Assembly (NCBI GenBank): GCA_013823725.1
Contig: PNMQ01000006.1
Span: 65,746 to 129,745, forward strand
Length of the DNA: 64,000 bases
Source of the DNA: Candidatus Pelagibacter sp.
Lineage (GTDB): Bacteria > Pseudomonadota > Alphaproteobacteria > Paracaedibacterales > CAIOTO01
Direction of reading: 5' to 3'
Every line of letters begins with the position of its first letter. Position 1 is the first letter of the stretch. Positions 9,310 to 10,462 of this stretch are shown here, one piece after another. The notes below the pieces were generated by a model. That model did no database searches and was not told where the DNA came from. It saw only the letters and a list, made by a program, of their open reading frames with translations. The position numbers were made by a program, and so were the translations under genes.

Positions 9310-9804
9310 CTAATCATGGTCTTTTTTGAACGCAGAAAATGAAACAACGTTATCTAAAGGCTTGTCACTATCCTCAACTTTTATTTTATTTTCTTCATCG
9401 AGCTCATCCATTAACGCTTGCAAATGCTCAGCATCAAGAGCAATATCATCAGTCGAAAACTCAATTCCAAAATCAACAGAAGGATCTGAAAATTTTAAAA
9501 TTGAAGCATACGGAACAACTATATTATACTCTTCATCATCGAAAATAAGGGTGACACTAAATGCGTCATCTTCAGCTTTTAAATCCCAAAATTCATATTG
9601 CAAACAAATCATCATGTCTTGAGGATATTCTTCTCTAACGTTTTCCGGTAAAGATACACCTGGAAAGTGTGTTAAAAACTCTATATAAAAATAATGATTT
9701 TCAGGAATACCTTTTTCAGAAGCATAACGCAACAAATCGCGTATTGCTTGCCTCATTGCTTTTTGAATAAATAAATCGTAATTAATAGATCCATTTTTCA
9801 GCAT
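9310..9804 (-). CDS. sspB: SspB-like ClpXP adaptor (alpha type)
   Basis: Adaptor that delivers ssrA-tagged polypeptides to the ClpXP protease. The 164 residues match the alphaproteobacterial SspB family: the helical start INYDLFIQKAMRQAIRDLL, then FYIEFLTHFPGVSLPENVRE, the FEIWDL-like core CLQYEFWDLKAEDDAFSVTL, and the VVPYASILKFSDPSVDFGI strand region. An acidic linker leads to the C-terminal DNVVSFSAFKKD, which resembles the conserved tail that docks on ClpX. It lies about 70 bases downstream of ssrA on the same strand, so tag and tag-reader are linked. No strong promoter was seen between them; a weak one (TTGATT at 9851-9846 on the minus strand) is possible. Confidence 0.88.
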   Translation of the reverse strand: MLKNGSINYDLFIQKAMRQAIRDLLRYASEKGIPENHYFYIEFLTHFPGVSLPENVREEYPQDMMICLQYEFWDLKAEDDAFSVTLIFDDEEYNIVVPYASILKFSDPSVDFGIEFSTDDIALDAEHLQALMDELDEENKIKVEDSDKPLDNVVSFSAFKKDHD

Positions 9805-9875: not shown

Positions 9876-10233
9876 TTAATGGGGGCTATTCTGTTGCCCG
9901 GAAGCCCCCCAACCGCTACAGAAAACTACGTTATATTTCGATACGAAATTTTAGGCAGCTTTACGGTCGCTACGACGACGAGCACCATTTGCAGGAACGC
10001 GTGTGTTGCGATTCGCGGACTGACGTCCACTGTTAGAAGCAGAATTTACATTGCCGCTTATAAAAATTAGCCCGATAACGACGGTACAATGCCGAGCAAA
10101 ACAACTTATCTTTACTACGCACGTCGAAGCTATTTCGTCCCCATATTCAATTGGTGGAGACGCCGGGTACCGCCCCCGGGTCCGCAACGCTTATTCCATA
10201 ACTGGTTTATTGCCATAGATGATTTTCATCATC
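9876..10233 (-). ncRNA. ssrA: tmRNA, circularly permuted two-piece form
   Basis: Transfer-messenger RNA that frees stalled ribosomes. On the minus strand the acceptor piece comes first: the T arm CCGGG-GGCGGTA-CCCGG, then CGTCTCC, A and CCA, with the CCA ending at 10152. After a 9-base linker the coding piece starts GGGGACG at 10142. GGGGACG pairs with CGTCTCC over seven positions including one G-U, which proves the permuted layout. Next come GCTTCGACG, a pseudoknot-like region (GCTCG/CGGGC), and the tag frame from about 10055 to its TAA at 9953-9951. A hairpin ATTTCG-TAT-CGAAAT follows, then a GGGGGCT/AGCCCCC stem (9909-9881). The deduced tag has about 34 residues, is rich in Arg and ends RRRSDRKAA. 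Exact piece ends are approximate. Confidence 0.9.
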
Positions 10234-10268
10234 AATACTATTATATAACAAAAAATCAAAAAAATCAT
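10218..10268 (-). promoter_or_regulatory. ssrA promoter and 5' hairpin
   Basis: On the minus strand a perfect TATAAT lies at 10245-10240, with ATGATT at 10268-10263 as a -35-like element 17 bases upstream. The expected start, seven bases after the -10 box, is a G at 10233. From exactly that base the sequence GATGAT-GAAA-ATCATC forms a perfect 6-bp hairpin with a GNRA loop (10233-10218), so the primary transcript would begin with a stem-loop. This supports a dedicated strong promoter for tmRNA. Confidence 0.65.
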
Positions 10269-10462
10269 TAAATAAGTTGAATTGTAAAAAACTAGCCACT
10301 AAAGATTTTTTTGAAATATTATTAAAGTCTTCATCTTCAAAACGACATTACTTATGCAACTCCGTAGAATTATGGTCTTTTTTGATCTTAGAATATGCTG
10401 ATTTAGTCAGAATCTCTTAAACCTTTAGCAGTATCAAACCATTTAAAAAAACCACACTATCA

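Follow-up and report, generated by a model that had tools for sequence, protein, structure and literature searches.

A long, arginine-rich tmRNA tag in a Holosporales-type lineage of Alphaproteobacteria

The ssrA gene found in the window (the whole 64,000-nucleotide stretch of contig PNMQ01000006.1 analyzed here) is likely to encode a functional two-piece tmRNA of the alphaproteobacterial type, with a tag that became longer inside a Holosporales-type lineage; tagging would be of the ordinary kind, the degron for SspB/ClpXP being expanded and basic. Its tag of 34 encoded residues is one of 38 that we could read in the order of the host (the Odyssella/Paracaedibacter/Finniella group of protist-associated Alphaproteobacteria, included in Holosporales by NCBI), and all of them are long, about two to five times the usual size.

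The tmRNA gene and its reading frame

The gene (Table 1) matches the covariance model RF01849 over its full length (10272 to 9878, model positions 1 to 355 of 355, 208.3 bits, E 7.7e-59), with the permuted tRNA-like domain of the alpha-type two-piece tmRNAs, and is present as a single copy in the host genome (1.26 Mb, 98% complete). The match to RF04321 (130.7 bits) ends exactly at the TAA at 9951. As in other members of this type, a frame opens at a positioned resume codon, closes with a stop and has Ala-Ala as its last residues. The ANDN-type start, typical of these tags if not strictly defining, is replaced by GNVN, and ANxN is found internally. This does not exclude the gene from the type, because 30 sequences with a glycine resume codon have been recorded (PMC1168896).

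Table 1. Features of the ssrA-sspB region, in window coordinates
Feature	Position	Strand	Evidence
ssrA, permuted two-piece tmRNA, acceptor piece then coding piece	9878..10272	-	RF01849 and RF04321
Resume hairpin (5' arm containing the resume codon), AAGCGG (10059-10054)/CTGCTT (10042-10037), 11-base loop	10037..10059	-	Fold z -1.8; covariation
Predicted resume codon GGC (Gly)	10053..10055	-	Aligned with the usual GCA; triplet A-T-A at -6 to -4; shared position in the tags of the order
Tag reading frame, 34 codons plus TAA, GNVNSASNSGRQSANRNTRVPANGARRRSDRKAA	9951..10055	-	Resume codon placed by homology; frames of relatives; purifying selection; 7/7 Arg codons CGT/CGC
First internal ANxN module, ANRN, codons 14-17	10005..10016	-	Internal ANxN in 32/38 tags of the order
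Last 13 codons of the tag, ANGARRRSDRKAA, resembling a tag of normal length, with degenerate ANxN and AA end	9954..9992	-	Alignment with L034 (ANGNRRRSDVRKAA); analogous segments in relatives
Small hairpin directly 3' of the stop codon, ATTTCG-TAT-CGAAAT	9935..9949	-	Fold z -1.9
sspB, alphaproteobacterial-type ClpXP adaptor	9310..9804	-	PF04386, E 6.5e-34; adjoins ssrA downstream

The frame had already been proposed in a sequence-only reading of this DNA, from the GGC at 10055 to the TAA, with seven Arg, one Lys and one Asp and the ending KAA; the RF01849 match, the RF04321 end on the TAA and the codon count all agree with it. The net charge is +7. The same reading suggested fixing the resume codon with a covariance model, and in the alignment the GGC lines up with GCA, the usual resume codon (columns read by eye), with no shift downstream. 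Six bases 5' of the resume codon opens a triplet that reads ATA in 32 of the 38 tags of the order, ACA in four, GTA in one and CTA in one, i.e., A-T/C-A in 36 cases and one base off in the other two. The bases just 5' of the tag frame have been reported to contact SmpB and to place the resume codon (PMC8012679). The predicted resume codon of the window is fixed by these homologous columns together with the conserved upstream triplet.

The hairpin that holds the resume codon is supported by covariation. When 14 relatives are aligned in this register, 82% of the cells are paired and the score is 0.41 against 0.21 for shuffled alignments (0 of 500 as high), and this register beats all slid registers, although it was picked by inspecting the same sequences, which favors it. 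The loop is two bases longer in branches f4 and f5 (read by eye). This hairpin, both at 10037-10059 and in the relatives, is not drawn in RF01849; an energy-based prediction placed a “helix m,” possibly the same element, in this region of the Caulobacter tmRNA (PMC1168896).

A run of ARAGORN did not find ssrA at 9878-10272. The program also overlooks the tmRNAs of some relatives and elsewhere gives just the C-terminal part of the tag, from an inner ANxN or similar (the loci concerned are that of the window, L001, L022, L023, L030, L036, L037 and L041). Public annotation of the tags at these loci may be wrong. Alphaproteobacterial tags are usually short, of the form ANDN...AA, and gene finders seem to count on this. 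Such calls also bear on where translation resumes. If resumption took place downstream, at the inner ANxN, the real tag would be short, as in ANRNTRVPANGARRRSDRKAA or ANGARRRSDRKAA, with everything upstream left as an untranslated spacer. ARAGORN reports short tags of this kind in several relatives (ANSNRFVAAQAA in L030 and ANTQGFAVKAA in L037), and in many of them the last module with what follows it, mostly 11 to 16 residues, does look like a complete ordinary tag (ANSNRFVAAQAA, ANFNRAYAAVAA or ANGNRRRSDVRKAA). Nevertheless, the conserved A-Y-A triplet and the covarying hairpin remain at the upstream position, and, in all the genomes read, the stretch leading up to the last module stays open and in frame. 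Furthermore, in the f5 branch (L005, L007 and L009), ANNN, ANRN or ANSN begin at the canonical position, and there ARAGORN itself calls the full-length tag.

The substitution pattern points in the same direction. Over 13 pairs of relatives, pS and pN were 0.38 and 0.23 for the whole tag frame, 0.43 and 0.22 for the frame 5' of the last module (pairs pooled, Fisher p 7.6e-7) and 0.47 and 0.21 between codon 8 and the last module, i.e., also beyond codon 7; the Fisher p values of the three regions lie between 3e-7 and 2e-6 and are only a guide, as the pools mix pairs of unlike divergence. Changes in the tag frame by codon position were 58, 56 and 95, highest at the third, and the Arg codons of the window tag are all CGT or CGC (7/7), a class that makes up 36% in the window ORFs longer than 200 amino acids and 66% in its rpoB. 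The frame 5' of the last module is under purifying selection, which argues that the tag extension is translated. Purifying selection, the third-position excess and the CGY codons therefore make a downstream start unlikely and, together with the upstream triplet and the hairpin, led us to reject it; we consider a short tag very improbable.

Long tags across the order

A tmRNA was detected in 38 of the 42 genomes of the order, 37 of them readable to the end. These provided 38 tags including that of the window (G014 contributes two, on short contigs), counted after surplus front codons were cut back to the resume codon. Their sizes range from 18 to 59 codons (median, 34.5), with a mean net charge of +5.1. 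In other alphaproteobacterial families, 103 of 117 tags have 9 to 15 codons and net charges from -3 to +1, and the remaining 14 have 20 to 38 codons; these comparison tags were read automatically, and individual lengths may be a codon or two off. The long tag is thus a trait of the lineage, universal among the genomes of the order that were read and unusual against alphaproteobacteria at large. The earlier description of the window tag as unusually long holds for the latter comparison and fails within its own order, where every tag is long, which also discards an oddity of this genome alone. A sequencing or frame artifact was rejected as well, since relatives belonging to all eight families of the order have open frames that are just as long and end in AA; the comparison with related genomes that the sequence-only reading called for revealed no frameshift. 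The largest tags, L041 of G014 (59 codons) and L037 of G007 (52 codons), have no recognizable internal ANxN. The second tmRNA of G014 (L040, 34 codons) is on another short contig, possibly the result of a mixed assembly.

Named members of the order identified via their SspB include “Candidatus Odyssella thessalonicensis,” “Candidatus Paracaedibacter symbiosus” and MAGs labeled Finniella. NCBI taxonomy places the first two in Holosporales, family Paracaedibacteraceae, in keeping with the Holosporales-like host that had been guessed from the letters. More Holosporales-labeled genomes carry long tags (L168, L171 and L172, plus L169 with duplicated ANDN). In an RpoB tree of 28 genomes, the order and three more long-tag genomes form one well-supported clade. 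A single origin of all the long tags was rejected: G158 and G160 branch apart from the rest, and no fewer than three gains or losses are needed on this tree, whose deep forks are poorly supported. Doubled, near-perfect ANDN or CNDN tags without Arg expansion appear in other families (L258 of G160, L169, L263 of G105, and L170), and G160 falls outside the long-tag order in the RpoB tree.

The long-tag form of this order seems to be undescribed. No description of the long tags of Holosporales or Odyssella was located in the open-access literature, and the tmRNA Website may already list the sequences; the missed and shortened calls of ARAGORN may explain why the trait has been overlooked.

Modules, charge and protein partners

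Internal modules of the form [ACVS]NxN were found in 32 of the 38 tags of the order, against a mean of 5.2 and a maximum of 13 in per-tag shuffles (1,000 rounds), although the count runs over related genomes that are not independent, and the events must be fewer than 32. The internal patch SANRNTRVPAN, noticed before as reminiscent of ANDN, is real and recurs in the relatives of the window as paired ANxN modules. In the window, the second module is degenerate (ANGA, within ANGARRRSDRKAA), and an intact ANRN lies eight codons before it. The tags of the order are often arginine-rich, with net charges up to about +11 (L033). The terminal AA is retained in 36 of the 38; the two other endings are KVA (L049) and RAV (L050). 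Lys is third from the end in seven of the 38, among them all five tags of the family of the window, so that the ending -KAA is confirmed as a family feature, and in one of the 117 tags from elsewhere.

The sspB gene lies next to ssrA, and an SspB frame is close to ssrA in nearly all loci of the order long enough to hold one. The closest solved structures to the window protein are 2nys, 2qas and 2qaz. SspB proteins dock on ClpX through their C-terminal tail, and this tail is conserved in the order (NVVTLDAFRKK in relatives, NVVSFSAFKKDHD in the window). The window SspB is diverged (41% identity to its relative in L033, of the same family), and NVVSFSAFKKDHD ends in residues beyond the conserved tail. 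The genome also codes for ClpP (315 bits), a complete SmpB (TIGR00086, 161.8 bits, with GKKLHDKR and the tail) and a ClpX with the pore-1 loop GYVGEDVE and the RKH loop VPPQGGRKHPQQEF, letters that we take to equal those of Escherichia coli. In E. coli, both loops have been shown to contact the tag (PMC7652416). ClpA was discarded as a tag reader, with nothing above its cutoff in the genome and, as the best hit, a split match in an 863-amino-acid frame that is probably ClpB.

Tags of this form probably go to the usual disposal machinery, as they keep the normal AA end and in most cases hold a second copy of the ordinary adaptor motif. Stalled ribosomes would be rescued by SmpB and tmRNA in the usual way, with resumption at the GGC, which the conserved triplet would position at the base of the small hairpin, and the tag added would be one unencoded Ala plus the 34 encoded residues. 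Its layout would comprise a variable head, the first ANxN module, a basic stretch and then the C-terminal segment resembling a normal tag, i.e., the second module (here degenerate), basic residues and the Ala-Ala end. The acidic SspB from the neighboring gene would hold the ANxN/basic part and hand the Ala-Ala carboxyl end to ClpXP. SspB binding, degradation by ClpXP and any benefit of the extra length or charge are what we infer from the genomes.

A different proteolytic readout had been put forward as a need for a tag of this chemistry. Such a rival readout could involve another protease, e.g., Lon, or a non-degradative role, e.g., association of the tagged fragments with nucleic acids or membranes. 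The length, the charges up to those of L033 and the -KAA ending might suggest it, and in Mesoplasma a longer tag goes with the replacement of ClpXP by Lon (PMC9382460). Unlike mollicutes, this genome retains ClpX with loops of the E. coli type, ClpP and an adjacent SspB with its family-conserved tail, besides SmpB, and the AA end is nearly constant in the order. The claim of need is unsupported, and a different readout is in our opinion unlikely. The Lys third from the end, so rare elsewhere, might weaken ClpX binding. Still, -KAA alone requires no other protease, because ClpXP reportedly depends chiefly on the terminal Ala-Ala, and changes in the antepenultimate residue have only a modest effect on KM (PMC7652416).

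It is harder to say whether the extra residues do anything. Tentatively, the degron might have been rebuilt by co-evolution into a lengthened, basic peptide in which modules for adaptor binding are repeated, matched by an acidified SspB, possibly for a two-site, charge-assisted delivery to ClpXP, in tags of up to 59 codons, beyond the 8 to 35 amino acids on record. In the order, the net charge of the SspB core averages -11.3, compared with -5.2 in 25 others (p 2e-8 by Mann-Whitney test, kinship ignored), with no comparable shift in the charge of RpoB. The charges of tag and SspB are correlated over 52 pairs (rho -0.62), mostly between lineages, and therefore shared ancestry alone could give this relation; charge matching within the order is weak and not significant (rho -0.26, p 0.14). 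In E. coli, longer stretches before ALAA improved degradation without SspB, in support of an expanded degron, and the artificial AANDENYAANDENY, with AANDENY doubled, showed no significant gain in SspB binding over one copy (PMC8512704). Two modules, therefore, need not mean two-site binding. The degenerate second module of the window and the six tags of 38 without any internal ANxN also count against the expanded degron.

An equally tentative alternative is near-neutral drift in small, host-associated genomes, by which a soluble extension of whatever kind would do as long as it ends in AA. The ANxN repeats would then be left over from duplication, and ClpXP would read the tag in the ordinary way. 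The genomes of the lineage are indeed small, and the head and middle of the tags vary greatly in length and sequence, up to the 59 codons without modules of L041. What speaks against drift is the excess of internal ANxN over the shuffles, the purifying selection on the frame and the preferred Arg codons. Drift differs from our preferred explanation, ordinary tagging with an expanded basic degron, in one point alone, namely whether the added length and charge have any effect. These tags of 18 to 59 codons, mostly with repeated ANxN, are natural variants for learning what SspB and ClpX need from a tag, and the lineage bears on whether SspB and tag co-evolve and on why host-associated bacteria with small genomes would pay for longer tags.

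Comparison with known systems

Tags of 8 to 35 amino acids are on record (PMC8012679), the commonest length being 10 (PMC11915505). To correct the previous statement that known tags mostly have 8 to 15 residues, the window tag, with its unencoded Ala, lies at the top of the recorded range rather than outside; relatives with 36 to 59 codons exceed it. With the ssrA of Caulobacter crescentus and the RF01849 type, the window shares the gene permutation, the tRNA-like domain, the resume column, the stop, the acceptor end and the SmpB partner. It differs in its 34 codons (9 to 15 in 103 of 117 others), its Gly resume codon and its net charge (+7 against -3 to +1). The Ala-Ala end, the ClpX loops, ClpP and SspB expected of an SspB-ClpXP degron are all present. 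The mf-ssrA of Mesoplasma florum also has a tag longer than that of E. coli; in mollicutes, active ClpXP was lost and Lon is used (PMC9382460), whereas the window genome keeps ClpX, ClpP and SspB, and its tag the AA end, i.e., the absence of ClpXP that goes with a Lon-read long tag is not found here. The artificial tandem degron AANDENYAANDENY (PMC8512704) likewise has two copies of the SspB-binding motif per tag, but it was made in the laboratory, without an added basic stretch or an ALAA end, and its two copies gave no significant gain in KD. Natural parallels are the duplicated-ANDN tags of Holosporaceae and others (L169, ANDNVFACNDNYAVEAIALAA; L258, ANDNVAFVAANDNTVVEVAVAA), for which we located no description; they also carry two ANxN modules per tag but, unlike that of the window, are shorter (21 to 22 amino acids), with acidic modules, and not Arg-rich.
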